Origin: a virus
Strand: one strand, 5' to 3'
DNA: 37,973 bases
Virus record (IMG/VR): IMGVR_UViG_3300042691_014315
Location: 1-37,973 of that record
Shown: positions 950 through 28,937 of the stretch, one piece after another
Position numbering within the stretch: the first letter of the stretch is position 1
Layout: every line of letters begins with the position of its first letter
Made by a program: the position numbers and the translations under genes
Notes under the pieces: model-generated
Database searches by the model: none
The model's input: the letters and a program-made list of their open reading frames with translations, nothing else
Told to the model about the DNA's origin: nothing

Positions 950-1366
950 ATGGCTATTCCTACCGTAGGTGGCGGCTATCAGTTCAATGATGGCAACCCG
1001 AATGAACTTAAAATGTCGGTTTCGGCGGCTCCGGTCACCGCAACCGACAGCGCGACGCTCACAGCGGCGCAGTTGACCAACGGCATTATTCTTGGTTCGC
1101 CAACGACAACGGCAGCGTATACGCTTCCAACAGCGGCGAACCTTGATGCGCTTTTGGAAAACTCGCACGCCAACACGTCGTTTGACTTCCGCATCATCAA
1201 TGTCACCGGTTCGGGCGTCATTACAGTGACAACGAACACGGGTTGGTCGATTGGTTCGTCCGGTTCGCAGGGTCTTATGACCGTTGCTGCAACAGCCGGA
1301 ACGACACGCGGCTTTCGTGCTCGCAAGACGGGCGACAGCACGTGGGCGCTTTACGCGATCTCGTAA
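950..1366 (+). CDS. small beta-rich virion protein, possibly head decoration
   Basis: 138 residues with a strong ribosome site (AAGGAG at 936-941) just after the coat stop. The sequence is almost free of charged residues in its middle and rich in Thr, Ala, Gly and Ser with alternating hydrophobics, as in beta-sandwich virion proteins. The end (GFRARKTGDSTWALYAIS) resembles the closing strand of phage head-fibre or decoration proteins. Its position directly after the coat gene, where many podoviruses carry a decoration protein, supports a role on the capsid surface. I do not recognise a named family. A similarly composed 154-residue protein lies at 28940-29404, next to the terminase. The assignment is inference from composition and context. 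Confidence 0.6.
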   Translation: MAIPTVGGGYQFNDGNPNELKMSVSAAPVTATDSATLTAAQLTNGIILGSPTTTAAYTLPTAANLDALLENSHANTSFDFRIINVTGSGVITVTTNTGWSIGSSGSQGLMTVAATAGTTRGFRARKTGDSTWALYAIS

Positions 1367-1372
1367 AACTAC

Positions 1373-1396
1373 CGGCGGGGGTTTCGGCCCCCGCCG
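1373..1396 (+). terminator. strong GC-rich stem-loop after the decoration gene
   Basis: A perfect 9-bp inverted repeat (CGGCGGGGG / CCCCCGCCG) with a 6-base loop starts six bases after the stop at 1366. No T-run follows, so it may be a weak or Rho-assisted terminator, a transcript-stabilising 3' end or a processing site that sets coat and decoration transcripts apart from the downstream neck genes. Confidence 0.55.
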
Positions 1397-1416
1397 CTGC
1401 ATTCAAGGGGAGAACT

Positions 1417-1638
1417 ATGACGCATATTTACCTTCGTCATCCTGTTCACGGCACAAAGATTGCCACAATGGATTTGGAAGCTGACGCAGACGAACAAAAC
1501 GGTTGGGAACGGTTTGACCCAAACAACCCTGTTGCTGACGATGACGACGACATCTTGCCGGAACCCGCGGTTACGGTTAATGTTCTAGCTGAAGCACCAC
1601 GCCGTCGCACAAGGACGCGTACAATATCGGACGAGTAG
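1417..1638 (+). CDS. small acidic protein of unknown function
   Basis: 73 residues. ATG at 1417 follows a good ribosome site (AAGGGGAG). The protein has an acidic middle (VADDDDDILPEP) and a basic Arg-rich tail (RRRTRTRTISDE), so charge is strongly segregated. I recognise no domain. Its place between coat/decoration and the gp4-like gene, with only one base before the next start, puts it in the head-completion operon; it may be a small virion or assembly protein. The frame is also open further upstream, but the ribosome site fixes the start at 1417. Confidence 0.6.
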   Translation: MTHIYLRHPVHGTKIATMDLEADADEQNGWERFDPNNPVADDDDDILPEPAVTVNVLAEAPRRRTRTRTISDE

Positions 1639-1639
1639 C

Positions 1640-2350
1640 ATGACAACGGCTGGCGATATTATCAATGGTTCCTTGAGGCTTCTTGGCATTTTGGCGGAAG
1701 GCGAAACGCCCTCCGCTGAAACATCGCAAGACGCGCTTAACGCGATGAACCAAATGATTGACTCGTGGAACACCGAGCGCCTGTCTGTTTTTTCTACCCA
1801 AGATCAGGTTGAAACATGGCCGCCTAGCACACGCTCACGGACCTTCGGCCCAACCGGCGATATTGTCGGCAACCGCCCTATTTTGATTGACGACAGCACG
1901 TATTTTAAAGACCCTGCAACGGGTATTTCTTACGGGCTGAAGCTCATCAACCAACAGCAATACAACGGCATTGCCGTCAAAACCGTGACCAGCACGTATC
2001 CGCAGGTCATGTGGGTCAACATGACCTATCCGAACATTGAAATGTATGTCTATCCGGTGCCGACAAAGGTGCTGGAGTTCCACATTGTGTCGGTTGAAGA
2101 GCTGACGCAGCCAGCCAATTTGTCCACTGTGCTGTCATTCCCGCCCGGCTATCTCAGAGCGTTCCGCTACAATCTGGCTTGTGAAATGGCCCCCGAGTTC
2201 GGTGTCGAACCCCCGCCGACGGTGGGGCGCATTGCCATGACGTCCAAGCGCAACCTGAAGCGCATTAACAATCCTGATGACATCATGTCGTTGCCTTATT
2301 CCATCGTCGGAACTCGGCAGCGTTTCAACATATTCGCTGGTAACTTCTAA
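1640..2350 (+). CDS. P22 gp4-like head-completion / tail accessory protein
   Basis: 236 residues. The N-terminus (MTTAGDIINGSLRLLGILAE, then ALNAMNQMIDSWN at about 32-44) is the helical signature of the P22 gp4 tail-accessory family, the ring that binds beneath the portal and closes the head after packaging. P22 gp4 itself is 166 residues; this longer form is common in other podoviruses. It follows the previous gene by one base and is followed directly by the gp10-like gene, as in P22 (4-10). The C-terminal part (PPGYLRAFRYNLACEMAPEF) is also typical. P22 gp4 has been reported to have muralytic activity, but nothing here shows this directly. Confidence 0.85.
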   Translation: MTTAGDIINGSLRLLGILAEGETPSAETSQDALNAMNQMIDSWNTERLSVFSTQDQVETWPPSTRSRTFGPTGDIVGNRPILIDDSTYFKDPATGISYGLKLINQQQYNGIAVKTVTSTYPQVMWVNMTYPNIEMYVYPVPTKVLEFHIVSVEELTQPANLSTVLSFPPGYLRAFRYNLACEMAPEFGVEPPPTVGRIAMTSKRNLKRINNPDDIMSLPYSIVGTRQRFNIFAGNF

Positions 2351-3790
2351 ATGCAGACGCCTATTCTGGGACAGACTTATGTGGCGCGCAGCGTTAACGC
2401 TGCCGACAGCCGCATGGTCAATCTTTTCCCTGAAATTCTGCCTATGGAAGGCAAGACGGCGGCGTTTTTGAACCGCGCGCCGGGCTTGCGTCGGTTGGCT
2501 ACGTTGGCCAGCGGCCCTGTTCGCGGGTTGTGGTCGCCCGCCCCCGGCGGTGATTACGCTTATGCTGTGGCGGGCAACACGTTCTATCGCATTGACACCA
2601 GCTACAACGCGCAGGCGTTCGGTTATGTCAGCGGCACAGGCCCCGTATCCATGTCGGACAACGGCACGCAAATTTTTATAGCGGCCAACCCCGACGGCTA
2701 CATCTTCAATATGGCTACGGAAATTTTTGCCCCGATTACAGACCCCGACTTCCCCGGCGCGGTGACGGTCGGCTATCTGGACGGCTATTTTGTGTTCAAC
2801 GAACCAAACTCGCAAAGAGTTTGGGTGACGCAACTGTTAGACGGCACGTCTGTTGACCCGCTGGACTTTGCCAGCGCCGAAGGCTCGCCTGACGGTCTTG
2901 TTGCGCTGATCATTGACCACCGCGAAGCTTGGCTCTTTGGTACCAGCACGGTTGAGGTCTGGTACAATTCCGGCAATGCCGACTTCCCGCTTGAACGCAT
3001 CCAAGGCGCGTACAACGAAATCGGTTGCGCGGCCCCATACTCTTTGGCCAAACTTGACAATGGCGTGTTCTGGCTCGGCGCTGACGCGCGCGGTGAAGGT
3101 ATTGTCTACCGCACCAACGGCTACACCGGCGTTCGTGTCTCAACCCACGCGGTCGAGTGGCAAATCCAGCAGTACGGCGACATCTCGGACGCCATCGGCT
3201 ACACTTACCAACAAGACGGGCACGCGTTCTACGTGCTGACCTTCCCGTCGGCCAACGCGACGTGGGTCTACGACGTGTCCACACAGGCGTGGCACGAACG
3301 GGCCGCATGGGACAACGGGCAATTCAAGCGCCACCGCTCCAACTGCCAGATGACGTTCAACCACGAGATCATCGTCGGCGATTTTAACGACGGACGCATT
3401 TATGCGTTTGATCTGACCGATTATACCGACGACGACCAGCCGCAACGCTGGCTGCGGTCGTGGCGGGCGCTGCCGCAGAACCAGAACCCGCTGACCCGCA
3501 CGGCGCAACACAGCCTTCAACTTGACGCCGAAACAGGCGTCGGGCTGAACCTTGGGCAGGGCAGCAATCCGCAGGTCATGCTCCGTTGGTCAGACGACGG
3601 CGGCCATACATGGTCAAATGAACATTGGTCGTCTATGGGGGCAATCGGTGCGTATGGCACACGTACATTCTGGCGGCGGCTCGGCATGACGCTAAAGCTG
3701 CGCGATCGCGTGTACGAGATTTCCGGCACAGACCCTGTGAAAATTGCGATTGTCGGGGCCAATCTGATTGTGAGCCCGACCCGTGCCTAA
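2351..3790 (+). CDS. P22 gp10-like tail hub / packaged-DNA stabilisation protein
   Basis: 479 residues, against 472 for P22 gp10. In P22 this protein forms the hexameric hub below gp4 to which tailspikes and needle attach. The start (MQTPILGQTYVARSVNAADS, followed by MVNLFPE) is the recognisable family opening, and the body has beta-propeller-like repeats (EVWYNSG, FWLGAD, WVYDVSTQAWHERA, the latter kelch-like). The gene abuts the gp4-like gene with no gap and its end overlaps the next gene by 8 bases, suggesting translational coupling. Confidence 0.85.
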   Translation: MQTPILGQTYVARSVNAADSRMVNLFPEILPMEGKTAAFLNRAPGLRRLATLASGPVRGLWSPAPGGDYAYAVAGNTFYRIDTSYNAQAFGYVSGTGPVSMSDNGTQIFIAANPDGYIFNMATEIFAPITDPDFPGAVTVGYLDGYFVFNEPNSQRVWVTQLLDGTSVDPLDFASAEGSPDGLVALIIDHREAWLFGTSTVEVWYNSGNADFPLERIQGAYNEIGCAAPYSLAKLDNGVFWLGADARGEGIVYRTNGYTGVRVSTHAVEWQIQQYGDISDAIGYTYQQDGHAFYVLTFPSANATWVYDVSTQAWHERAAWDNGQFKRHRSNCQMTFNHEIIVGDFNDGRIYAFDLTDYTDDDQPQRWLRSWRALPQNQNPLTRTAQHSLQLDAETGVGLNLGQGSNPQVMLRWSDDGGHTWSNEHWSSMGAIGAYGTRTFWRRLGMTLKLRDRVYEISGTDPVKIAIVGANLIVSPTRA

Positions 3791-4523
3791 TAACGAAACT
3801 CAAATCCCCGCCCCCCGCGTTCCGATCTCGGAGCAAAACAACATTCCGACGCGGGAATGGTTCCGGTTTTTTAACGCAATCTACGTGTTTCTCGGCCTGT
3901 CACGCGGCATTATCCCTGAGACCAGCGGTGGCACGGGCAACATCACCTATGCGACCGGCGATCTTTTGTACGCCTCCGCTCCCGACACGCTGTCACGTCT
4001 ACCAGTGCCGAGCCAAGCGTGCTATCTCGGCACCGACGACACCAACATGCCGCAATGGATACCTGTTGCATACGGCGCGTTTGCCAACACCACCACTCAG
4101 ACTGCGCCAGCGTCTACGCCGGTCGGCATTACGTTTAACGTTACAGATCACAGCCGCGGCGTTACAGTTAACGGCTCACAAGTGACCGTAGCTGAAACAG
4201 GGCTTTACACAATCACGTTTAGCCTTCAGCTTTCTAATCCGAGCACAGCATCAGAAGATGACGCAATTGTGTGGCTAAAAGTCAACAATAACGATCTTCC
4301 TAACACGGCCAGCCACATCACGATTGCCAAATCACACGGTGGCACGGCGGGTAGCGGTATTATGACCGTCAACTTCTTTCACGACTTGACCGCAGGTGAC
4401 TATTTTGAAATTTATGGTATGAGTGTAGCAGGGCTTCTTGAGCTTAAAACTTACGCCGCCGGAACTTCACCTGCATACCCTGCTGCACCTGCCGCCATTC
4501 TGACCGTTTCGCAGATTATCTAG
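3783..4523 (+). CDS. C1q/TNF-like fibre or tail-needle-position protein
   Basis: 246 residues, starting at GTG 3783 inside the end of the gp10-like gene. An N-terminal segment ([18 protein letters not shown], about 22-39) is followed by a short collagen-like linker (PETSGGTGN) and a C-terminal jelly-roll with the C1q/TNF pattern ([31 protein letters not shown]). It occupies the position of the P22 tail needle gene 26 and has a similar length (233 in P22). It lacks the long heptad coiled coil of gp26, so it may be a short needle tip, a plug or a trimeric fibre. A TNF-like knob is known on the Sf6 needle. Structural assignment is fair; role is inferred from position. Confidence 0.6.
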
Positions 4524-14000: not shown

Positions 14001-14193
14001 TCGGCTTGTCTGACCGCACGCCAATCAGCTCTTCCCGCTCGCGCTGCGCGCGCAGTACGGTGAACTTTTGGTGAAGGCGGGTCAGGATCGTGGGGCGCTT
14101 GTATGTTTCAAACTCCTGCACGATCATCTCGCGTAGTTCTTCTTCGGTCTTGTGATTGATTATGCGGTTCATGTCGCGCCAAGTCAGTTTCAT
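13993..14193 (-). CDS. small protein coupled to SNF2 helicase
   Basis: 66 residues, mostly one or two helices with mixed charge (WRDMNRIINHKTEEELREMI, RPTILTRLHQKFTVLRAQRE). Its ATG overlaps the stop of the SNF2-type helicase (ATGA), so it is the last gene of this minus-strand operon. I recognise no family. It may be a helper of the helicase or a small DNA-binding protein; that is inference from coupling only. Confidence 0.55.
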   Translation of the reverse strand: MKLTWRDMNRIINHKTEEELREMIVQEFETYKRPTILTRLHQKFTVLRAQREREELIGVRSDKPIM

Positions 14194-15485
14194 TTTAAAG
14201 CCTCTAATGCTACGTCAGAAATTCCGCGCTTGTCATGCAAAGCGCCCCAGATGCGTTCGTCCACGGTTTCGTTCGTCAAGAAAACATAACACCAGACGTC
14301 GTGCTGCTGCCCGCCGCGATGAAGACGACCGACCGTCTGTTCGTAAAGTTCCAAAGACCACGGCAATGACAAGAACACAATATGACAGCCGCCGTGCTGA
14401 AGATTGAGCCCGTGACCGGCTGACTTCGGGTGCACCAGCAGCAGCGGTATCTTGCCAGCGTTCCAGTTATCCACAGCATTTTCATCATCTAGCGTTTTTG
14501 CCTGTGGATAACGTCGCTTTAGCTCATCCAATTCCTCACGGTATCCGTACGCGATGATCGTGTTCGCGTGCTGGTTCTCATCTAATAATTCGTCAAGCCT
14601 ATCAAACTTATGGTGACTGATCCATTTGGTCTTGTCGCCGTATACAAACCCCGACGCCATCTGTTGCAGCTTTGACGTGACCACCGCGGCGTTGACCGCT
14701 ATGGCCTGCGTGTCGGGGAACTGCACCACAAAGTCGCGCTTCATCGTGTTGTAGTCGTTCATGTCCATGTCGCACTTGACCTCGACGACGTGGAGCGGCG
14801 GCAGTTTGTCTTTGTACTCGCCCGGCTCCAGCACGAACGTCGCGGGCTTGATGCGCTGCATGACCTGTTCGAGCGCGCCGTTGCGCGGCTCCCACTGGCC
14901 GTACTCTTGGTTGAGGCAAAAGAAGTATTGCTGCAAGAATGCGCCCTTCGACCGCCCGAGCAGACGCTGGTCAATGATCTTGCATTGACCAAACACGTCC
15001 TCAAGCCCGTTTGACGTGAAGCTGCCGGTCAACCCCCACCTGATCGGTATCTGGTCGATCACCTTGGCGAGCGCCTTGAACCGAGCGCCTGACGGGTTCT
15101 TAAGCCGCGTCAACTCGTCAAACACAATAATGTCAAACTTTAATTTTTCTGTGGATAACTGTTGCAGGGTGTCATAGTTTGCCACGACGATGTGCGTCGG
15201 GGCGTCAAGCGCCGCTTTACGCTGTTTCGGCGTCCCGACCGCGACCGACAAAGCAAGCTCTGGCGTCCATTTGCGGCACTCGGTCGGCCAGACGTCTACA
15301 CAGACGCGCTTTGGAGCCAACACAAGCACGCGGTTTGCGTGGCCGTCGCGGAGCATGTCGCGTATGGCGACTAGCGTCAGCGCGGTCTTGCCCGCCCCGA
15401 CCGGCGCAAGAACCATCGCGCGGTCATGCTCAAACAGGAAGTCAGCGGCCTGGTTTTGGTATGGACGCAAGGATAGCACGGCCAA
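14190..15485 (-). CDS. SNF2/DEAD-type DNA helicase
   Basis: 431 residues. SF2 motifs in order: RPYQNQAADF (Q-like, 7-16), Walker A APVGAGKT (27-34), VLAPKRV (Ia), motif II FDELTRLKN (122-130, DEL in place of DEAH), motif III GLTGSF, and C-terminal SAGHGLNLQ (V) and EQTVGRLHRGGQ (VI). This is the short SNF2-like helicase that accompanies VRR-NUC, DUF2800 and PolA genes in many phages, presumably in replication or recombination. The start is taken as TTG 15485 because GGAG lies five bases upstream; a GTG at 15479 is possible. It overlaps the end of the methyltransferase by 44 bases. Confidence 0.88.
   Translation of the reverse strand: MAVLSLRPYQNQAADFLFEHDRAMVLAPVGAGKTALTLVAIRDMLRDGHANRVLVLAPKRVCVDVWPTECRKWTPELALSVAVGTPKQRKAALDAPTHIVVANYDTLQQLSTEKLKFDIIVFDELTRLKNPSGARFKALAKVIDQIPIRWGLTGSFTSNGLEDVFGQCKIIDQRLLGRSKGAFLQQYFFCLNQEYGQWEPRNGALEQVMQRIKPATFVLEPGEYKDKLPPLHVVEVKCDMDMNDYNTMKRDFVVQFPDTQAIAVNAAVVTSKLQQMASGFVYGDKTKWISHHKFDRLDELLDENQHANTIIAYGYREELDELKRRYPQAKTLDDENAVDNWNAGKIPLLLVHPKSAGHGLNLQHGGCHIVFLSLPWSLELYEQTVGRLHRGGQQHDVWCYVFLTNETVDERIWGALHDKRGISDVALEALK
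14467..14511. promoter_or_regulatory. inverted pair of perfect DnaA boxes
   Basis: TTATCCACA at 14467-14475 and its complement TGTGGATAA at 14503-14511, 27 bases apart, both exact matches to the classical DnaA box. A third exact copy (TGTGGATAA) is at 15150-15158. All lie inside the helicase gene and in different codon phases, so a repeated protein motif does not explain them. Near matches, one mismatch each, flank the divergent intergenic region (16744-16752 and 16798-16806). Whether the host DnaA or the phage DnaA-like protein (24645-25121) uses them is unknown. Confidence 0.4.
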
Positions 15486-16491
15486 TTAACTCCGGTATTT
15501 GGGGGACTACGGCGTTCCCGAGCTGCTTAAGTCTGTCCACCCGTCCGGGAACCCCATTAGCCACTCGACCCACGTCGGGTTCAACTGCCCACCAGCGTGC
15601 GTCGCCAACGTCTTGGTGTTCCTCGCTAGTTCCGCAGGTGATTTGCCATTGTCTTTCCAATCGCGCGCGCAAGGTGTCGGTAACAACACCGCGTCGTTCA
15701 AGTTCTGCGACCATCCCTGCTCGCGCTTGCGTATGGCTCGCGGGCTGTCTGGGTTGTCCCCGCTCCGGTAATCCCCCGCTTGTGGGGTAGGCCACAGTTT
15801 TACCGCCATCCCCAAATCCACATTCTTGCCCCTCGCTAACTCTTTTTCTGCCCCTTCTAGCGTCCGAGAACCCTTGGCGCCGTCCGTTGCCCGAGGTGTT
15901 GGCCACATTTGAGCGTAACCCGCTAAATTCATCGTAAATCGTTTTCCCGCTTTGGTTGTTGGAGAGTTGTGATTCGGACCGCCCGTGGACGCTGTTGGCG
16001 TTGGGATAGGCGATGATCCAAATTCGGTCCCTGCGGTGAGGAGCGCCAACGGCGGAAGCGGGGATACAATGCCATTCTGCATCATACCCGATCTCAGAGA
16101 GTGACCAGAGAACTTGGTCCAATCCGCGAGATCGAAGGGCTGAAACGTTTTCGGCGATGACATACGACGGGCGGATTTCTTTGATAAGGCGGTGGAACTC
16201 AAACCAGAGACCGCTTCTGGCTCCGGCGAGACCGGCACCTTTACCGGCAACGCTGATGTCCTGACAAGGAAATCCGCCAACGATGATGTCAATTTTTTCA
16301 TTGATTTGATCCCCCGTCAGTGCTGATACATCTTCAAAAATTGGTACGTCAGGCCAGTGTTTTTTAAGAACAAGCCGCGCTTTTTTGTCTATTTCGCAGA
16401 ACGCTACAGTCTCAAACCCCCCTGTGCGCTCAAGCCCAAGCGAGAACCCGCCGATCCCGCTAAATAAATCCAATACTTTTAATCCACTCAT
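15442..16491 (-). CDS. C5-cytosine DNA methyltransferase
   Basis: 349 residues with all core motifs: I DLFSGIGGFSLG (8-19, AdoMet binding), IV GGFPCQDIS (72-80, catalytic Cys76), VI ENV (114-116), VIII PHRRDRIWIIA (151-161), a target-recognition region (about 165-300) and IX/X RVDRLKQLGNAVVPQI near the end. It methylates C5 of cytosine in an unknown target, probably to escape host restriction; no partner restriction endonuclease is visible. The ribosome site AAGGA precedes ATG 16491. The gene overlaps the VRR-NUC gene by 32 bases and the helicase by 44, so the three form one operon. A long second reading frame lies inside it. Confidence 0.92.
   Translation of the reverse strand: MSGLKVLDLFSGIGGFSLGLERTGGFETVAFCEIDKKARLVLKKHWPDVPIFEDVSALTGDQINEKIDIIVGGFPCQDISVAGKGAGLAGARSGLWFEFHRLIKEIRPSYVIAENVSALRSRGLDQVLWSLSEIGYDAEWHCIPASAVGAPHRRDRIWIIAYPNANSVHGRSESQLSNNQSGKTIYDEFSGLRSNVANTSGNGRRQGFSDARRGRKRVSEGQECGFGDGGKTVAYPTSGGLPERGQPRQPASHTQARAGMVAELERRGVVTDTLRARLERQWQITCGTSEEHQDVGDARWWAVEPDVGRVANGVPGRVDRLKQLGNAVVPQIPELIGRAILASIPKPGR
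15507..16301 (-). CDS. possible overlapping gene inside the methyltransferase (+1 frame)
   Basis: A 264-codon frame lies wholly inside the methyltransferase on the same strand. Its product contains DLADWTKFSGHSLRSGMMQN, LPPLALLTAGTEFGSSPIPT, four spaced repeats of the form PTPxAxD/T (PIPTPTAST, MWPTPRATDG, LWPTPQAGDY, LLPTPCARDW) and an end LNPTWVEWLMGFPDGWTDLS. From memory, very similar sequences are deposited as separate or C-terminal 'DNA methyltransferase' proteins in many phages and bacteria. The same bases encode the conserved motif IX/X region of the enzyme in the main frame, so this frame could be a by-product of that conservation. I saw no strong ribosome site at ATG 16301. Existence as a protein is uncertain. 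Confidence 0.4.
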   Translation of the reverse strand: MKKLTSSLADFLVRTSALPVKVPVSPEPEAVSGLSSTALSKKSARRMSSPKTFQPFDLADWTKFSGHSLRSGMMQNGIVSPLPPLALLTAGTEFGSSPIPTPTASTGGPNHNSPTTKAGKRFTMNLAGYAQMWPTPRATDGAKGSRTLEGAEKELARGKNVDLGMAVKLWPTPQAGDYRSGDNPDSPRAIRKREQGWSQNLNDAVLLPTPCARDWKDNGKSPAELARNTKTLATHAGGQLNPTWVEWLMGFPDGWTDLSSSGTP

Positions 16492-16741
16492 CTACATTTT
16501 CCTTAGACCACACTACTGTATAGTTCTGTTTCAACCTGAACATTTCCGTTGCGAACGCGCGTTGCAATGGCGAGATCGTGCCGCCAACCGTCTTAATCTC
16601 AACGAACCATGTTGAGCCGTCTGGCAGGCAGGCGATACGGTCAGATACGCCGCGATGGGCGGGGGACGTGAACTTGTACGTCCGACCGCCAATGTCCTCG
16701 ACGCGCTTTTTAAAATACTGCTCTACGTGTTTTTCCAACAT
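16460..16741 (-). CDS. VRR-NUC domain nuclease
   Basis: 93 residues from ATG 16741 (starts further upstream, up to 16777, are possible). The short VRR-NUC fold of the PD-(D/E)XK superfamily is clear: HRGVSDRIACLPDGSTWFVE with D34, then E48-I-K50 and GGTISPLQR with Q60. Stand-alone VRR-NUC proteins occur in many phages next to SNF2 helicases and PolA; they are structure-selective nucleases probably acting on replication or recombination intermediates. It is the first gene of the minus-strand operon that continues with the methyltransferase and helicase. Confidence 0.88.
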   Translation of the reverse strand: MLEKHVEQYFKKRVEDIGGRTYKFTSPAHRGVSDRIACLPDGSTWFVEIKTVGGTISPLQRAFATEMFRLKQNYTVVWSKENVDEWIKSIGFI

Positions 16742-16830
16742 GGCTATCCACATAAGCCGTAACAAATTGTTTGACAACTCAGATGGCGCAATCTTAGTGT
16801 GGATACATCAACGCAAAGGGAGAAGGTAAA
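16742..16830. promoter_or_regulatory. divergent promoter region between replication operons
   Basis: About 90 bases separate the VRR-NUC operon (-) from the DUF2800 operon (+). On the plus strand a perfect TTGACA lies at 16771-16776, but the -10 seventeen bases on is poor (around ATCTTAGTG). A strong ribosome site GGGAGAAGG precedes the GTG at 16831. Two near-perfect DnaA boxes in inverted orientation (CTATCCACA 16744-16752 and TGTGGATAC 16798-16806) flank the -35. The region probably drives both operons. Confidence 0.45.
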
Positions 16831-19125: not shown

Positions 19126-21073
19126 TATTTTATGGGCGGATACCGAAACTAAAAGTGAATGTGATTTGCCGGTGTACGGCGTGTACAATTATGCACAACA
19201 CGCCAGCACTGAGCTGTTATGCTTAACTTATGCGTTTAACGATGAAGAGCCGCAAATTTGGTGGCCATCATCTGGAAAACTTTTTCCTGCACGCATAATT
19301 CAGCACATAAGAAGGGGCGGACAACTTAGATTTCACAATGCGGCTTTTGATAGACTTATATTTTGGTTTGTCATCTGTTCCGATTACGGCGTGCCTAAAC
19401 CCGTGTTGGAGCAATTTTATTGCACCGCGACGCAAGCGCGCGCAAATTGTTCCCCCGGTGCTTTAGAAGATGTCAGTAGGTTCGCAGGGGCAACAATGCG
19501 AAAAGACCCCCGCGGCAAACAGCTTATTAGGCAATGCTGTTTACCGCCGTTTTCTACCGATCCTGAAATTTTAAAGCAACTTGGCGAATACGCTTTGCAA
19601 GATGTCCGTACAATGCGCGCCGTCAGCAAGGCCATGCGCGACTTGAGCATCCTTGAGCTGGCCGACTACCACACCAACGAGCGCATCAACGACCGTGGCG
19701 TGCTGATCGACCGCGAGCTGGTGCGTGCCGCACGTCGGTTTGCGAATGTTGAGATGAACGACATACACGACACAGTGCGTGAAGTTACAAACGGCGAGCT
19801 TGTGTCTGTGCGTAGCCCCAAGATGCGTCAGTGGGTGTATGATCGCGTCGGCCCGCGCGCCAAGCAGATCATGCAGAAGGACAACAAGACCAGCATCGAC
19901 AAGACGGTGCGCGCCGGTCTGTTGGCGATGGAAGACCCCGACGAAGTGCCCCCGCACGTCATGGACGTCATCCAGTGCGCCGACGACATCTGGGCGTCGT
20001 CAGTCGCAAAGTTCCAACGGCTTGATAATCTTGCCGATCTTGACGATGACCGCGTGCGTGGTGCGTTCGTGTTCAACGGCGGCAGCGCGACAGGCCGCGC
20101 GTCGTCCTACGGCGCGCAGGTGCATAACTTCACACGCAAGTGCGCGAAAGAGCCAGAGGCTGTGCGTCAGGCGATGGTGCGCGGGCATGAGATCGTGCCG
20201 AAGTATGGCAAGCGCGTTACTGACGTGTTGAAAGGTATGCTGCGTCCGTCGCTGATCCCCGAGAAGGGCAAAGTGTTCGTCGTTGCCGACTGGTCGGCGA
20301 TTGAAGCGCGGTGCAACCCTTGGTTGGCGAACGACCCGATGGCGAGAGACATTCTTGATGTGTTTGAAAACGGCGGTGACGTGTACATCAAAGAAGCCGC
20401 TGGTATCTTTCGCAAAGACGAAGCAAGCGTCGAGCCTGAAGAACGCCAGATTGGTAAAGTTGCGATCTTGTCGCTTGGCTATGGCGGCGCAGTCGGCGCG
20501 TTTAACAACATGGCCCGCGCTTACGGCATAGCTATGACGGAAAATCAAGTGAAGCGCATCGTTGACGCATGGCGTCGTGCGAATCTGTGGGCCGTCAACT
20601 ATTGGAGCGCGCTTGAAAATGCGTATATGCGTGCGATCCGCAACCCGAAGCATGAGTTTAGCGCAGGGCGCGTCACGTATATGCACGATGGTACGCATTT
20701 ATGGTATATCTTACCGTCAAAGCGCATCTTGTGTTATCCGTTCGCCAAGATCGAAGGCGATGAAGTCACGTATGTGAAAGCATCATGGAAGCCGGCGGCT
20801 GATGCAAAAGAATGGCCGCGTGCAAGACTGTGGCGCGGGCTTGCGGCGGAAAATATCTGTCAAGCTACAGCGAATGATTTGTTGCGTCATACACTCAGAC
20901 AGCTTGACGATGTTGTGCTGCATGTGCACGATGAAGTCGTGGCGGAAGTGAATGAAGCCGACGCCGAAGCATACGCACAGCATCTTAAACAGGTCATGTG
21001 TACGCCGCCTGAGTGGGCGGCGGGTCTGCCTTTGAACGCCGAGGTCAAGATTATGGGGAGGTATGGCAAGTGA
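19118..21073 (+). CDS. family A DNA polymerase with 3'-5' exonuclease
   Basis: 651 residues from ATG 19118. Exonuclease motifs: Exo I D8-T-E10, Exo II HNAAFD (73-78), Exo III Y158-ALQ-D162. Polymerase motifs: A VVADWSAIEARCN (Asp391), B RQIGKVAILSLGYGG (Lys447, Tyr455), C HVHDEVV (604-606). This is the phage replicative polymerase. The first ~150 codons are rich in TTA, AGA/AGG and ATA codons and AT-rich like the adjoining HNH gene, then composition changes sharply near 19600. The stop overlaps the GTG start of the primase-helicase (GTGA). A more upstream in-frame ATG (19034) lies inside the HNH gene and is not needed. Confidence 0.93.
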   Translation: MTDILWADTETKSECDLPVYGVYNYAQHASTELLCLTYAFNDEEPQIWWPSSGKLFPARIIQHIRRGGQLRFHNAAFDRLIFWFVICSDYGVPKPVLEQFYCTATQARANCSPGALEDVSRFAGATMRKDPRGKQLIRQCCLPPFSTDPEILKQLGEYALQDVRTMRAVSKAMRDLSILELADYHTNERINDRGVLIDRELVRAARRFANVEMNDIHDTVREVTNGELVSVRSPKMRQWVYDRVGPRAKQIMQKDNKTSIDKTVRAGLLAMEDPDEVPPHVMDVIQCADDIWASSVAKFQRLDNLADLDDDRVRGAFVFNGGSATGRASSYGAQVHNFTRKCAKEPEAVRQAMVRGHEIVPKYGKRVTDVLKGMLRPSLIPEKGKVFVVADWSAIEARCNPWLANDPMARDILDVFENGGDVYIKEAAGIFRKDEASVEPEERQIGKVAILSLGYGGAVGAFNNMARAYGIAMTENQVKRIVDAWRRANLWAVNYWSALENAYMRAIRNPKHEFSAGRVTYMHDGTHLWYILPSKRILCYPFAKIEGDEVTYVKASWKPAADAKEWPRARLWRGLAAENICQATANDLLRHTLRQLDDVVLHVHDEVVAEVNEADAEAYAQHLKQVMCTPPEWAAGLPLNAEVKIMGRYGK

Positions 21074-23355
21074 ATTTTATTGATTATTTGACAAGCATTG
21101 CGCCTGAAGGCGAAACAATTTTGTTCGTGCGTCAGAAGCCGACAGGCGGCACGCATAGCGACGGCGCGTTGAAGTGCGTATGGCCTGCGTTCTTGCCTAA
21201 AGATTACAACGGCAAGCGTGCTGCTGCGTGGTATGCCAACACAGCGTGTTTCATTTTGGATCGTTTTAAGGACGGCAAAGTGTCTGCCGCCGCGACCAAC
21301 TGCGAACGCGTCGCGTTCATGGTGCTTGATGACATTGACACCAAGTCCAAGACACCGCCGCTTGAGCCGACGTGGAAGATCGAGACATCACCTAACAACT
21401 ATCAGTGGGGCTACACGTTCGCGCTTGATGAACAGCCGACCAAGGGCGAGTTCTCGGCAGCGATCATCGCTATTGCAGAGGCCGGCTACACTGACCGCGG
21501 CGCGATCAACCCCGTGCGTAACTTCCGCATCCCCGGCTCACTGAACCTCAAGCCCGGCAGAGACAACTTCGCCGCTGTGCTGACCGAGTTCCATCCCGAG
21601 CGTGAGTTCAGTTTGAAACAAATCTGCGACGCGCTTGGCGTCGTGCCGCAGGACGCCAGCACCGCGCAGATCGCCAAGCTGCATCTTGATGACGACGGCA
21701 ACGATGATGTGCTTGCGTGGATGGCGGGGCGCGGTGAGATTGTTGAGAAGGCGAACGCCGAAGGTTGGGTCGGCGTTATCTGCCCGAACCATGCAGAACA
21801 CTCGGACGGCAACCCGACAGGCCGCTATCACCCCGTCAACCGCGCTTACGTCTGCTTCCACTCCCACTGCGGCGATTGGAACAGCGAACGCTTCCTCGGG
21901 TGGGTCGCCGACGAAGGCGGGCCAGCGCGTAAGCATGGCCTCCGCGATGATCTCCTTGCGCTCCAAATGGAAGCCGCACTATCGAAAATTAAGCCAACAG
22001 ACGCGTTTCCAGACGAAGCGTCGCGTGTCATCAAGCAAGTAGAACAAAAGGAAATGGGCCGTCTGGAAAAAAAGGATTGGTTCAAACGCTTCGCCTACAT
22101 CCAATCCGACGACGCGTTTTTTGACATGGAAGAGCGCCGCGAGGTGACGCGCTACACATTCAACGCGCTTTATCGTCACGTCACCTGCGTGTCGATCCAC
22201 AACGCCAAGCGCCGCATTGAGGCGGCGACGTGTTTTGACGAGAACCGTCAGGCGATGGGCGCTCACTCGCTTGTTGGCATCACTTACGCGCCGGGCGAGA
22301 GTGTGCTTGTGGCACGCGACGGGCTTGTTTACGGCAACCGTTGGCGCGACGCGCGGCCTGAGTATAGGGAAGGCGACATCACGCCATGGCTCGAACACTG
22401 CCGCGCACTTGTGCCGGAAGCCGACGAGCTTGAACACATTTTCAACATGATGGCGTTCAAGGTGCAAAACCCGAACATCAAGATCAACCACGCCGTGCTG
22501 CATGGTGGGGACGAAGGCTGCGGCAAGGACACAATGTGGGCGCCGTTCATCTGGGCCGTCTGCGGGCCTGATCTTAGAAATCGCGGGCTTGTAGACAATG
22601 ACAGCGTGTCGTCCGCATGGGGTTATCATCTTGAGAGCGAAATCCTGATCCTCAACGAATTGAAAGAACCCGGCGCGCATGAGCGCCGCGCGCTTGCCAA
22701 CAAACTGAAGCCGCTGATCGCCGCGCCGCCCGACATGATCTCAATCAACCGCAAGGGCTTGCATCCTTACGATATGGTCAACCGGATGTTCGTTCTGGCG
22801 TTCTCGAATGATCCCGTGCCGATCTCGCTCGCCTCACAAGACCGCCGCTGGTTCTGCATCTGGTCATCCAATCCGCGCATGATCCCGTCAGAGGCCGAGA
22901 AGCTCTGGGCGTGGTATAAGAACGGCGGCTATCAGGCGGTCGGCCATTGGCTCAAAACGCGCGATGTGTCGAAGTTTAATCCGGCAGAACCGCCGATGAT
23001 GACAGAGTTCAAGATGAACCTTGTCGAGAACAGCATGAGCGTCGCCGAGAGCTATATCGTTGAAGCGATCCGTATGCGTAAGGATGACTTCGCCAAGGGC
23101 GTCATCGCCGCGCCGTTCCACGCGCTCTGCGACCGCCTGTCTGGTATCATGCCGCAAGGCGTAAAGGTTCCACAAGCCGCGCTTCTCCACGCGCTCAAAG
23201 AAGCCAAGTGGGTCAACATGGGTCGGCTTGGTGCGTCGGACTATCCGACGAAAAAGCAAATCTATTGCGCGCCGGAGCTGGCGTATTTACCGAAGTCCGA
23301 TCTTAGGCGCATGGTCGAGACACCGCCAGAGGCAAGGCTTACAGTTGTAAAATAA
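21070..23355 (+). CDS. primase-helicase (AEP-like primase plus SF3-type ATPase)
   Basis: 761 residues from GTG 21070, overlapping the polA stop. The N-terminal third looks like a RepB/AEP-type primase (MVLDDIDTKSKTPPLEP with acidic pairs, then NPVRNFRIPGSLNLK). A Cys/His cluster follows (VICPNHAEHSDGN, YVCFHSHCGDW, about 236-265). The C-terminal half is a DUF5906/VirE-like ATPase: Walker A GGDEGCGKDT (about 479-488), Walker B EILILNELKE (about 525), and FVLAFSNDPVP as the SF3 sensor. It would unwind and prime phage DNA for the adjacent polymerase. It is the last gene before a strong terminator. Confidence 0.85.
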   Translation: MNFIDYLTSIAPEGETILFVRQKPTGGTHSDGALKCVWPAFLPKDYNGKRAAAWYANTACFILDRFKDGKVSAAATNCERVAFMVLDDIDTKSKTPPLEPTWKIETSPNNYQWGYTFALDEQPTKGEFSAAIIAIAEAGYTDRGAINPVRNFRIPGSLNLKPGRDNFAAVLTEFHPEREFSLKQICDALGVVPQDASTAQIAKLHLDDDGNDDVLAWMAGRGEIVEKANAEGWVGVICPNHAEHSDGNPTGRYHPVNRAYVCFHSHCGDWNSERFLGWVADEGGPARKHGLRDDLLALQMEAALSKIKPTDAFPDEASRVIKQVEQKEMGRLEKKDWFKRFAYIQSDDAFFDMEERREVTRYTFNALYRHVTCVSIHNAKRRIEAATCFDENRQAMGAHSLVGITYAPGESVLVARDGLVYGNRWRDARPEYREGDITPWLEHCRALVPEADELEHIFNMMAFKVQNPNIKINHAVLHGGDEGCGKDTMWAPFIWAVCGPDLRNRGLVDNDSVSSAWGYHLESEILILNELKEPGAHERRALANKLKPLIAAPPDMISINRKGLHPYDMVNRMFVLAFSNDPVPISLASQDRRWFCIWSSNPRMIPSEAEKLWAWYKNGGYQAVGHWLKTRDVSKFNPAEPPMMTEFKMNLVENSMSVAESYIVEAIRMRKDDFAKGVIAAPFHALCDRLSGIMPQGVKVPQAALLHALKEAKWVNMGRLGASDYPTKKQIYCAPELAYLPKSDLRRMVETPPEARLTVVK

Positions 23356-24488: not shown

Positions 24489-24648
24489 CAACCGCCCCCA
24501 TGCGTGTTAGGTGAAACGTGACGCGGTTCGTTTTGACGCTTAACGCGCGCCATTTGCCATGCCAGTGTGATTTACTGATCCAGCCAAGCGCCGCGTCGTC
24601 TTTTATGACCGCGTAACAGTCTAACCCATCCTCTAAAATCCGTATCAT
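24466..24648 (-). CDS. small hypothetical protein
   Basis: 60 residues, beta-like with several aromatic residues (CYAVIKDDAALGWISKSHWH). ATG 24648 overlaps the stop of the DnaA-like gene (ATGA) and has a GAAGGGAG ribosome site. No family recognised. Confidence 0.55.
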   Translation of the reverse strand: MIRILEDGLDCYAVIKDDAALGWISKSHWHGKWRALSVKTNRVTFHLTRMGAVDAIVTGT

Positions 24649-25121
24649 TTTGTCGCTCCCTTCATGTTGCGCGTGTATGTCGTGCCGTTCAATTTTGCCG
24701 CGTGCTTATTTGCGCCATGCAGAACCGTCGTATGGTCACGGTTACAGAACCGTCCGATTTGCAGCATAGAATAGCCAGCTTGTTTTAGCAGATAAAACGC
24801 TTCTTGCCGGGCTTCAACAAAACGCGGCGAACGACATTTGCCGACGATATCGTTAGGCGTCATATCGTGCCGCGTTGCGACGTCGTGCAAAATTTTGACG
24901 TATTGCCGCGCGTTAGGCTTCGGTGCTGGCAATGGCTCAGGCGCTGGCGGTGGTCGCCGAACGACTGGCGCGTGTTTTGTCACGGGCTCAGGCTCAGGCA
25001 ATGGTTGCGGTCTGATCCGCTCAATTGGGATAGTAGGTCGCGCCATGCGCGGATCGCCGAGGCGCGTCCGTATCGCCTTGTAGTGCTCTGATAGCGTCTC
25101 GCGCGTCATCGTAACTGTCAT
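24645..25121 (-). CDS. protein with DnaA domain IV-type DNA-binding C-terminus
   Basis: 158 residues. A Pro-rich linker (about 40-70) joins a short N-terminal helix to a C-terminal domain matching DnaA domain IV: VATRHDMTPNDIVGKCRSPR, RQEAFYLLKQAGYSMLQIGR, then FCNRDHTTVLHGANKHA, the RDHTTV.H element that contacts the DnaA box. No AAA+ domain is present, so it cannot act as an ATP-driven initiator by itself. It could mark the phage origin, recruit or block host DnaA, or be a transcription regulator. A strong AAGGGGG ribosome site precedes ATG 25121. Confidence 0.85.
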   Translation of the reverse strand: MTVTMTRETLSEHYKAIRTRLGDPRMARPTIPIERIRPQPLPEPEPVTKHAPVVRRPPPAPEPLPAPKPNARQYVKILHDVATRHDMTPNDIVGKCRSPRFVEARQEAFYLLKQAGYSMLQIGRFCNRDHTTVLHGANKHAAKLNGTTYTRNMKGATK

Positions 25122-25943: not shown

Positions 25944-26159
25944 TCAAGCGTCAATAAAATCAGAATAAGACTGGATCGATTGCGTTGGTAGCAACGCGCG
26001 GTCTGTCATTTCGTTATGTATTAAAAGCGCGCGGTCAGCGTCGGAAATTGCGTTTTCGTTTTCAGTCGGCGCGCAATAGGTAGCCCACAAGCTACTTAAT
26101 TCACGGTCTGATAAACGCTTAACCCAATCTTGATACGCGTTAAATTGCTCAGTCGTCAT
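25944..26159 (-). CDS. small early protein next to the iteron region
   Basis: 71 residues from ATG 26159 with a GGGAGA ribosome site; upstream in-frame ATG 26249 lies in the regulatory region and is not used in this reading. Helical, acidic (QFNAYQDWVKRLSDRELSSL, ADRALLIHNEMTDRALL). It is the first gene leftward from the iteron-rich region and so probably among the earliest expressed. No family recognised. Confidence 0.55.
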   Translation of the reverse strand: MTTEQFNAYQDWVKRLSDRELSSLWATYCAPTENENAISDADRALLIHNEMTDRALLPTQSIQSYSDFIDA

Positions 26160-26580
26160 TTGTCTGTCTCCCGGTTTGCGTCGTCGACGCGTTGTTGATG
26201 CAACAGAATTTATAGCATCTAATGGCGTTGTCAATAGGGTGCAAAACATTATTTTGCGTTTTGGCTGAAATTGTCATGGATTGTCGTGTGGGTTGGGGGG
26301 TGATGACAAGGGTTAAGTTACTGTCACGCTTAGGGAAATTTGGGTTTTTGTTATAATTGTCAAATTGTCATCTATATATTTTAAGAATATGATGATATAT
26401 TATATAATACTAATATAAATGTGAACAAGAATCCGCACGCAGAATTGCGCTCACCGTTTTGGTCGCGACTTAAACATCGATGACAATTGACAATCGTGAC
26501 AATTTGCATGGCCAAGCATTTGACTGGCATGAAATTAAAAGCTAATATTTTTAGGGTGACAATTTGACAAGGTGACAATC
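26160..26580. promoter_or_regulatory. AT-rich iteron region: candidate replication origin / divergent control region
   Basis: The only gene-free stretch above 300 bases. It holds eleven exact TTGTCA/TGACAA copies, at 26228, 26271, 26304, 26357, 26365, 26481, 26488, 26497, 26557, 26565 and 26573, plus TTGTCG at 26281 and CTGTCA at 26321. Left copies mostly read TTGTCA and all right copies read TGACAA, so they face each other across a very AT-rich block (26371-26422). Spacing within clusters is 7-9 bases. The genes on either side diverge. The arrangement suits a theta-type origin (iterons plus unwinding element) or a multi-site operator. Confidence 0.55.
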
Positions 26581-26868
26581 ATGAACCCGATGACTGACTT
26601 GCTTTTTGATACGCTGCACAGCCGACGCGACTTGCGCGATCGCTTAGATCGCTTCACGCGATGGGGTTACATGACAAGAAAACAATCAAGTGAATTGGAT
26701 CGCTTGATTGCGCCTGGCTTGCCTTGCTTGCTGACCCTGTCTTGCCGGGTAAAGAAAGGCGACGTGCATGTGAAGGTTGGTGAAGGTGAAAGCGCAAAAG
26801 AATTTAAGCTAGACGCAAGCGCTTGCGTGCATCGCGCTGCTAGCGTCAAGCATTGTGCGCTGAGTTAA
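26581..26868 (+). CDS. small basic protein right of the iteron region
   Basis: 95 residues from ATG 26581 (ribosome site AAGGTGA, which overlaps the last iteron). Basic helical N-terminus (LHSRRDLRDRLDRFTRWGYM, then TRKQSSELDRLIA) followed by a beta-like C-terminal half with CRVKKGDVHVKVGEG. The ribosome site lying within a TGACAA repeat suggests that a protein bound to the repeats could shut off this gene. Possibly a DNA-binding regulator; not recognised. Confidence 0.55.
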   Translation: MNPMTDLLFDTLHSRRDLRDRLDRFTRWGYMTRKQSSELDRLIAPGLPCLLTLSCRVKKGDVHVKVGEGESAKEFKLDASACVHRAASVKHCALS

Positions 26869-27019: not shown

Positions 27020-27487
27020 ATGTTTGAATCACTGCCTTACGAACCACGCGAAATCAAAGCCACAGAGGCGCGGCTTCAGCGCATCTATGAAGCTGCCACG
27101 TTCGGGCTTAAAGGTGACGCCTTGGCCTTGGCGGCGGGTATGCTGCCGTCAGAGTACCGGCGGCTCTGCCAGATGGACCCTATGGCCGAGATGGCTGAGA
27201 TGAAGGGACGCGCCGACTCGGAGATGAAGGTCGCCAAGACGCTGTACAAAGCAGCCGAGGAGGGCGACGCCAAGGCGGCGCTGGCGATCTTGCAGCACCG
27301 CCATGAGTGGTCGGCCAAGCAAGAGATCAGCGTGGACGTGTACCAGCGCATCTCAATCACACAAGCGCTGGCAGACGCCAAGACACGCGTTATTGAGGGG
27401 ATAGTAACCAATGGCTCAGATGCCAATCTACAACTCGGCAGACGAACAAGTCTTGATGTCGACCCTGTGGTCGCCGAGGCTGGCTGA
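27020..27487 (+). CDS. terS: terminase small subunit
   Basis: 155 residues (P22 gp3: 162). N-terminal helices with a helix-turn-helix-like segment (GLKGDALALAAGMLPSEYRR) are followed by a long helix (DSEMKVAKTLYKAAEEGDAK, ALAILQHRHEWSAK) and EISVDVYQRISITQAL, a pattern common to small terminases of this phage group. It should bind the packaging site and load the large subunit. The gene lies directly before terL and overlaps it by 77 bases. Confidence 0.85.
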   Translation: MFESLPYEPREIKATEARLQRIYEAATFGLKGDALALAAGMLPSEYRRLCQMDPMAEMAEMKGRADSEMKVAKTLYKAAEEGDAKAALAILQHRHEWSAKQEISVDVYQRISITQALADAKTRVIEGIVTNGSDANLQLGRRTSLDVDPVVAEAG

Positions 27488-28937
27488 CGACCCGGAAGCG
27501 TTTGTACTTTTTTGTTTTCCTTGGGGCCAGCCAAACACACCGCTCGCTAATTTCTCAGGCCCGCGCAAATGGCAGCGCGAGCGCCTGCGGGAGATCGCCG
27601 AGCATATCAAGAAAAACAAAGGCCAGCTCCAGATGGACACGCTGCGGAAAGCGGTCTCGTCCGGGCGCGGTATTGGTAAGTCGGCGCTTGTCAGTTGGTT
27701 GATCCTGTGGATGCTGACGACCCGCATAGGATCGACGGTCATCGTCAGCGCCAACTCGGAAGCGCAGCTCCGCTCGGTCACATGGGGCGAGTTGACCAAG
27801 TGGACGGCGATGGCAATCAACAACCACTGGTGGGAAATCTCAGCGACCAAGCTGACGCCCGCCAAGTGGGTCTGTGAGCTGGTCGAGCGCGACCTGAAGA
27901 AAGGCACGCGCTACTGGGCGGCGGAAGGCAAGCTGTGGTCGGAAGAGAACCCTGACAGCTACGCGGGTGTGCATAACCATGACGGCATGATGCTGATCTT
28001 TGACGAAGCATCAGGTATCCCTGACGCGATCTGGTCGGTCGGGGCGGGCTTTTTTACGGAAAACATACTGGACCGCTACTGGTTCGCGTTCTCGAACCCC
28101 CGCCGTAATCAGGGGTATTTCTTTGAATGTTTCAACGCGAAACGTGATTTCTGGTCAACGACGCAAGTTGACGCCCGCACGGTCGAGGGGACCGACAAGA
28201 TGGTCTATGAGCAGATCATCGCGGAGTACGGCGAGGACTCGGCGCAGGCCAAGGTCGAAGTGTATGGCGAGTTTCCGTCAGAAGGCGACGACCAGTTCAT
28301 CGGGCCCGCCTTGGTCGAAGAGGCTATGCGGCGGGAGCAGCACAAAGACATGACCGCCCCCTTGGTGATGGGCATCGACCCTGCGCGTGGTGGGCTGGAC
28401 TCGACGGTCATTGTGCTGCGGCGGGGGCGTGATCTTGTTACGATCAAACGCTACCAAGGCGAGGACACGATGATGATCGTGGGGCGCGTGATCGACATGA
28501 TCGAAGAGCATAAGCCGACGCTGGTCGTCATGGACGAGGGCGGGCTGGGGTATGGTATTCTTGACCGCCTGAACGAACAGCGTTACAAGGTCAAAGGTGT
28601 TAATTTTGGCTGGAAGGCCAAGAACTCGATCATGTGGGGCAACAAGCGCGCCGAGATGTGGGGCGCTATGAAGGACTGGCTGAAGTCAGCGTCGCTACCA
28701 CAGGACCGGCAGCTTAAGGCCGATCTGACGGGGCCGTTGAAAAAACCGAACTCTTCGGGTACAGTCTTTCTTGAAGGGAAGAAGGAAATGCGAGCACGGG
28801 GCTTGGCATCGCCTGACGCAGCAGACGCGCTGGCCGTGACGTTCGCATATCCGGTTGCCCATCGTGAATATAAGGAAGGCCCTGTTCGCAAGATAAGTTC
28901 AGGGTCTGGCGCAACTCTTACATGGATGGGTAGCTAA
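27411..28937 (+). CDS. terL: terminase large subunit
   Basis: 508 residues (P22 gp2: 499). ATPase: Walker A SGRGIGKSA (84-92) and Walker B MLIFDEASG (194-202). Nuclease: GIDPARGG (Asp323), VVMDEGG (Asp375) and SPDAADALAVTFAY near residue 480, the three-acid RNase H-like site. It pumps DNA into the prohead through the portal and cuts it. Start ATG 27411 lies within terS in another frame. Confidence 0.95.
   Translation: MAQMPIYNSADEQVLMSTLWSPRLADDPEAFVLFCFPWGQPNTPLANFSGPRKWQRERLREIAEHIKKNKGQLQMDTLRKAVSSGRGIGKSALVSWLILWMLTTRIGSTVIVSANSEAQLRSVTWGELTKWTAMAINNHWWEISATKLTPAKWVCELVERDLKKGTRYWAAEGKLWSEENPDSYAGVHNHDGMMLIFDEASGIPDAIWSVGAGFFTENILDRYWFAFSNPRRNQGYFFECFNAKRDFWSTTQVDARTVEGTDKMVYEQIIAEYGEDSAQAKVEVYGEFPSEGDDQFIGPALVEEAMRREQHKDMTAPLVMGIDPARGGLDSTVIVLRRGRDLVTIKRYQGEDTMMIVGRVIDMIEEHKPTLVVMDEGGLGYGILDRLNEQRYKVKGVNFGWKAKNSIMWGNKRAEMWGAMKDWLKSASLPQDRQLKADLTGPLKKPNSSGTVFLEGKKEMRARGLASPDAADALAVTFAYPVAHREYKEGPVRKISSGSGATLTWMGS

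Follow-up and report, generated by a model that had tools for sequence, protein, structure and literature searches.

Background

PICI origins consist of an AT-rich region lying between two sets of iterons (PMC6092414). In SaPI Rep and Cch2 it is the C-terminal domain that binds the repeats of the origin (PMC7581432), and PMC4234260 states the same for the C-terminal domain of P4 alpha, citing Ziegelin and Lanka (1995) and Yeo et al. (2002). For PLE RepA, replication has been observed only with cognate initiator-iteron pairs (PMC8263062). Among uncultured phages, origins can rarely be assigned from sequence.

Here we describe a repeat array in a virus record of 37,973 bases (the window, meaning the whole stretch of DNA analysed). 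We consider it very probable that the array is a replication origin, its hexamers being iterons for the winged helix of a primase-helicase in which the choice of sequence resides mainly in the wing tip (residues ~719-727). The terminase, portal, scaffold and connector proteins of the window are P22-like, and the virus, a freshwater podovirus, has a distant relative in Phage DSL-LC05, which comes from lake water. Genes for an exonuclease, Pol A and the primase-helicase (16.8-23.4 kb, plus strand) lie left of the array and point towards it; they are followed by an opposing operon of small genes, the gap that holds the repeats, a single further small gene and finally the terminase genes (Table 1). 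A DNA methyltransferase gene and an SNF2-like helicase gene sit side by side at 14190-16491 on the minus strand, opposite in direction to the replication genes.

Table 1. Positions in the window of the repeat array, the proposed initiator and neighbouring genes
Feature	Position	Strand	Remarks
Primase-helicase, 761 aa, proposed initiator	21070..23355	+	AEP-like primase, SF3 helicase (DUF5906), C-terminal winged helix
Winged helix as predicted, spanning residues 658-733	23041..23268	+	Structure model
Wing tip RLGASDYPT, residues 719-727, putative specificity segment	23224..23250	+	Column scan, wing-motif table, prediction test
DnaA domain-IV protein	24645..25121	-	PF08299, E 2.6e-15; minority of relatives
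Left neighbour gene, 71 aa, no known family	25944..26159	-
Intergenic gap, putative origin	26160..26580	.	Upstream of terminase genes, position shared with relatives
Iteron TTGTCA, left arm	26228..26233	+	Overlaps leftward -35-like TTGACA
Iteron TTGTCA, left arm	26271..26276	+	Exact match
Degenerate copy TTGTCG	26281..26286	+
Lone inverted iteron within left arm	26304..26309	-	L017, L020 and L028 also have one
Degenerate copy CTGTCA	26321..26326	+
Tandem iteron pair TTGTCAaaTTGTCA, adjoins AT-rich core	26357..26370	+	Copies start at 26357, 26365
AT-rich core, 88% AT, presumed melting site	26371..26422	.	Inverted arms flank AT-rich core in relatives too
Iteron triplet TGACAAtTGACAAtcgTGACAA, right arm	26481..26502	-	Copies at 26481, 26488, 26497
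Iteron triplet TGACAAttTGACAAggTGACAA, right arm	26557..26578	-	Copies at 26557, 26565, 26573; overlaps next gene's ribosome site
Right neighbour gene, 95 aa, no known family	26581..26868	+	Sole relative is one near-identical record
Small terminase subunit (TerS)	27020..27487	+	Weak match
Large terminase subunit (TerL)	27411..28937	+	Query for relatives

A clustered, inverted repeat in the gap before the terminase genes

An earlier note on this DNA had counted eleven exact copies of TTGTCA/TGACAA in 351 bases, and our recount gives the same number (26228-26578), far above chance: when the 421-bp gap was dinucleotide-shuffled 5000 times, the copies averaged 0.50 and never exceeded 5. In the shuffled gap any hexamer at all reached at best 10 copies, and in 300 shuffles of the whole window the best 351-bp stretch held 4. 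The arrangement was also as the note had described it: four left-arm copies read TTGTCA and one is inverted, all six right-arm copies read TGACAA, the block between the arms is AT-rich, and the spacing of 7-9 bases within clusters was measured as 8 for the pair, 7 and 9 for one triplet and 8 and 8 for the other. The last iterons do overlap the ribosome site (TGACAAggTGACAATCATG) of the gene starting with ATG at 26581. The divergence of early genes from the gap holds on its left side, where the operon runs leftward, but not on its right, where the non-conserved 95-aa gene is followed by the terminase (late) genes. GC skew changes sign locally near 26 kb, a change that carries no weight as origin evidence since it tracks gene orientation.

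Could such an array be an operator rather than an origin, at which a small repressor (the 71-aa, 95-aa or DnaA-domain protein) shuts divergent promoters? Many repressors fit tandem sites 8-9 bp apart, and the repeats overlap -35-like boxes as well as the ribosome site. The repeats also overlap promoter-like sites, of which a scan by consensus match only gave 12 where 2.2 are expected, so part of the selection may act on transcription. However, the sites are not spread over the genome as dispersed operators or stoperators would be, with at most two copies per 351-bp window everywhere else in the record and no other cluster, and no neighbouring gene is conserved: the 95-aa gene, rejected as a regulator, recurs in a single near-identical record, and the DnaA-domain gene in a minority of relatives. 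The one protein found to track the repeat is the primase-helicase, through its wing (see below), which also speaks against the small proteins encoded at 24645, 25944 and 26581 as initiators. We therefore regard a pure operator, whether for autoregulation, as the note had alternatively suggested, or otherwise, as very unlikely.

A secondary effect of repeat occupation on transcription is possible, and we entertain tentatively, as an addition to the origin, that an initiator sitting on the iterons also switches the divergent promoters, which would for example time terminase expression after the start of replication. The overlap of iterons with promoter-like boxes and ribosome site, and the location of the array upstream of the terminase genes in relatives, are consistent with this dual use, but the promoter scan is one of consensus matching.

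The DnaA-domain protein pointed out in the note as lying 1 kb away is indeed encoded ~1.04 kb from the gap; a proline-rich N-terminus precedes a stand-alone DnaA domain IV in which the box-reading motif DHTTVLH is kept. An origin of DnaA type, with this phage protein as the reader of either the repeats or a DnaA box within the core, would accord with the kept motif and with one box (one mismatch) at 26420. Against it, that box is the only one in the gap, the repeats are unlike TTATNCACA, L002, L003, L004 and L018 have no box, and the DnaA-domain gene is absent from many array-bearing relatives, all of which makes such an origin highly improbable. DnaA boxes were discarded as a signal, there being 23 matches with at most one mismatch in the record and 23.6 expected; with this total at chance, several perfect or near boxes (TTATCCACA) occur at 14467-16806, left of the exonuclease gene. 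The DnaA-domain protein perhaps acts on host DnaA boxes.

Arrays at the equivalent place in relatives

Relatives were gathered as a first set of 80 loci with a related large terminase, and a second set of about 200 more loci found with three primase-helicase queries. Contigs of cellular genomes, among them several betaproteobacterial ones, contributed another 12. A motif caller that required both orientations and excluded extreme GC was applied to 156 unique loci. The array scored above every shuffled control in 125 of these, and the 99 strong arrays entered the covariation analysis; the other 57 of the 156 gave no strong call, 31 of them not exceeding the shuffled maximum. As the first set already showed, many phages carry a clustered 6-7-mer at the equivalent place, upstream of the terminase genes, the sequence of which differs by group (TGTCCACA, TGACTACA, TGCCTACA, TGGCAAT, TGCTGACA, TGACCCA and others). 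Conservation in close relatives had been proposed in the note as a check on the repeats, with its absence counting against an origin. That refutation failed: TTGTCA itself is kept in L002, L003 and L082, and an array sits at the equivalent place in more than 100 genomes.

The anatomy is shared as well. Arms are opposite in 79 of the 96 two-sided strong arrays and the same in 10, with a spacing peak at 9 bp, and arrays start at a median of 2226 bp (5-95%: 1166-4018) after the primase-helicase gene. The primase-helicase and both terminase subunits recur among the relatives, and the flanking genes vary.

Loci initially listed as arrays, such as L026, L219, L221, L224, L232 and L071, were rejected as one-orientation, mostly GC-rich tandem repeats. 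Dense GC-rich hexamers (CGGATC, GCAGGC) were also seen at L004:1347-1718, L061:73-223, L071:3762-4071 and L079:2-296, and look like minisatellites, not an origin array.

Arrays at the equivalent place also accompany a different primase, in DSL-LC05 and in a sister clade. In DSL-LC05 (L085, OR003940.1) a GGGTCA/TGACCC (TGACCCA) array lies upstream of the small terminase gene at ~3500-3970, and a search for the window's primase-helicase family did not find the primase of this phage. The DSL-LC05 array overlaps an annotated hypothetical gene, which may be spurious. In the sister clade (L060:2856-2980; also L051, L055 and L064) a CGTAAC/GTTACG array in both orientations is found directly 3' of a gene with Prim-Pol, PriCT_1 and AAA_25 domains and upstream of the small terminase gene; this array and the Prim-Pol/AAA_25 gene are probably another origin/initiator pair.

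The repeat changes together with the wing tip of the primase-helicase

In printed alignments of the primase-helicases a short C-terminal segment varies along with the repeat. We scanned 457 primase-helicase columns without bias towards any region, comparing residue sharing with sharing of the enriched hexamer between pairs of genomes, within bins of overall identity. Two wing-tip residues came out on top: P726, with r 0.65 and z 7.2, followed by G721, with r 0.55 and z 6.1 (scan columns 555 and 550, the reference row lacking 171 N-terminal residues). The best TerL column reached 0.34.

This result bears on the possibility of a packaging site, pac or cos-like, with repeats bound by the small terminase subunit. 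The array does adjoin terS across the family, but TerS proteins that are 97-100% identical are accompanied by different hexamers, and on a common set of genomes the best TerS column attains r 0.25, where the primase-helicase attains 0.59. As near-identical TerS carry different repeats, the small terminase is excluded as the reader, and a packaging site is extremely unlikely.

Wing and repeat fall into matching classes. The wing motif K.R pairs with TGTCCACA in all 31 assigned cases, [AG]..[DE]Y with TGRCAAT in 12 of 13, SARAL with TGCTGACA in 9 and M.R with TGACTA in 7; phylogenetically independent pairs are concordant (6/6, 4/4 and 5/5 with one tie). These motif classes were set after seeing the data, and the column scan and the nearest-wing test are independent of them. 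When the wing is left out of the tree, at least 12 changes of motif class are seen on it. Where partners fall below 80% identity elsewhere, the motif is correctly predicted from the nearest wing in 43% of cases and from the nearest rest-of-protein in 9%, and the recognition helix region (700-713) gave no motif prediction in this nearest-partner test. The one residue-to-base rule to emerge is that an arginine within 722-724 goes with YACA (Fisher p 9e-7, uncorrected for kinship).

One pair of relatives illustrates how local the change can be. The 766-aa primase-helicases of L013 and L017 differ at 30 positions, none in residues 1-400 and 20 in the last 127; five differences fall in the wing (ASAEYMN to MSRDYTA), and the arrays are TTGCCA and TGACTA respectively, with TerS 99% identical. 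As for exceptions, the AARGL wing with its two motifs is only an apparent one: most of its arrays hold both GGGTACA and GCTCACA, which have the 3' half, YACA, in common. A few same-wing pairs differ in motif: some, such as L270 and L194, look like miscalled arrays, and others are one-base motif shifts that the wing leaves unexplained, as between L030 and L166.

That the repeat changes together with wing-tip residues points to the primase-helicase as the repeat reader. Judged from these sequence comparisons, the covariation is one of coupled specificity between repeat and wing, from which we infer direct binding, and it puts the presumed specificity in the C-terminal wing.

Predicted structure and a candidate route to initiation

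The primase-helicase matches DUF5906 above cut-off. A structure model of the protein has a mean pLDDT of 82 and a pTM of 0.47; as the latter is modest, the arrangement of domains was not used. The closest solved folds are the C-terminal region of NrS-1 (Z 24.5) and then the SaPI5 primase-helicase (Z 16.9), followed by ASFV PrimPol and poxvirus E5/D5 (Z about 15), so the helicase has the SF3/D5-like fold of NrS-1, SaPI5 and poxvirus D5. The N-terminus aligns with AEP primases (S-2L PrimPol, Z 14.2; RepB', Z 12.3). In the model, the winged helix comprises helices 658-668, 683-693 and 702-711 and strands 678-680, 715-722 and 725-733, and the covarying residues lie on and next to the turn that joins the final pair of strands. 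A search with the isolated C-terminal model returned weak matches to common winged helices, the best at Z 6.6 and the NrS-1 tail at Z 4.8. Among the matches listed there was no P4 alpha entry, an absence that carries no weight for or against a link to P4 alpha.

The initiator is most likely the primase-helicase, and an origin with its own initiator, as the note had favoured, agrees with the array kept in place in over 100 relatives and the wing that covaries with it. C-terminal repeat binding in SaPI, Cch2 and P4, together with PICI-like anatomy (79 opposite versus 10 same), suggests an origin that loads two hexamers, one per arm. The candidate target of the C-terminal domain (residues about 640-761) would be TGACAATTTGACAA DNA; the winged helices would load helicase subunits onto both arms, whose orientations are opposite, a pair of SF3 hexamers would assemble face to face over the AT-rich core and melt it, and the primase part would lay the first primers for the phage Pol A-type polymerase, replication presumably starting at the array.

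If one family of freshwater podoviruses has repeatedly switched origin specificity (at least 12 times) via small wing-tip changes and matching replacement of whole arrays, the result is a readable protein-DNA code and a set of orthogonal, mutually incompatible origins. The pressure behind it would perhaps be attack directed at the origin, or co-infecting phages and satellites that compete; we consider the case for this evenly balanced. Initiator, specificity segment and iterons can here be paired together across roughly one hundred genomes, which offer natural material for studying how a DNA reader of the wing type shifts its target. A few residues would let the origins of new members be predicted, natural orthogonal origin/initiator pairs are offered for study, and a testable question is raised: why do phages so often change an essential origin?

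Comparison with known systems

An origin of this kind is already known from satellites, and covariation of initiator and iterons is already known for PLE (PMC8263062). We did not find a SaPI-like origin described in a family of complete phages, away from the initiator gene and with wing-tip switching, in a literature made up mostly of papers outside subscription.

NrS-1 primase-polymerase (PDB 6k9c; PMC7102993), with its ring-forming SF3 helicase, is the best match for helicase plus tail, but the available part of that report describes no origin iterons or origin-binding winged helix and calls the tail a novel fold. P4 alpha likewise combines primase, helicase and C-terminal winged helix (here predicted) in a single protein; its primase, however, is of the bacterial type (Toprim), whereas the window's N-terminus is AEP-like, resembling S-2L and RepB', and not Toprim. 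SCCmec Cch2 (PMC7581432) is a helicase and a relative of SaPI5 Rep, and its C-terminal domain, taken alone, binds direct repeats that are short, but it has three AAGTG iterons only, works with a separate primase-polymerase and belongs to a staphylococcal element. In PLE RepA of Vibrio satellites (PMC8263062), initiator and iterons co-vary between variants as they do here, but RepA is of RepA_N type with no predicted helicase or primase, its iterons are about 30 bp long, and the variants are few.

The closest parallel is PICI/SaPI Pri-Rep (SaPI5, PDB 7om0/7ola/7pds; PMC6092414, PMC7581432). Two iteron sets flank an AT-rich core in both, a primase is fused to a self-loading helicase, and origin recognition is C-terminal, as we infer it to be in the window. 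However, PICIs and SaPIs are satellites, whereas the window array sits in a whole tailed phage, and their origin is directly 3' of rep, whereas here the putative origin adjoins the terminase genes, at a median of 2.2 kb past the initiator gene and, in the window, separated from the latter by an opposing operon. In contrast to those elements, one phage family here uses many iteron sequences, and the window's putative origin type is unusual for its rapidly switching specificity.
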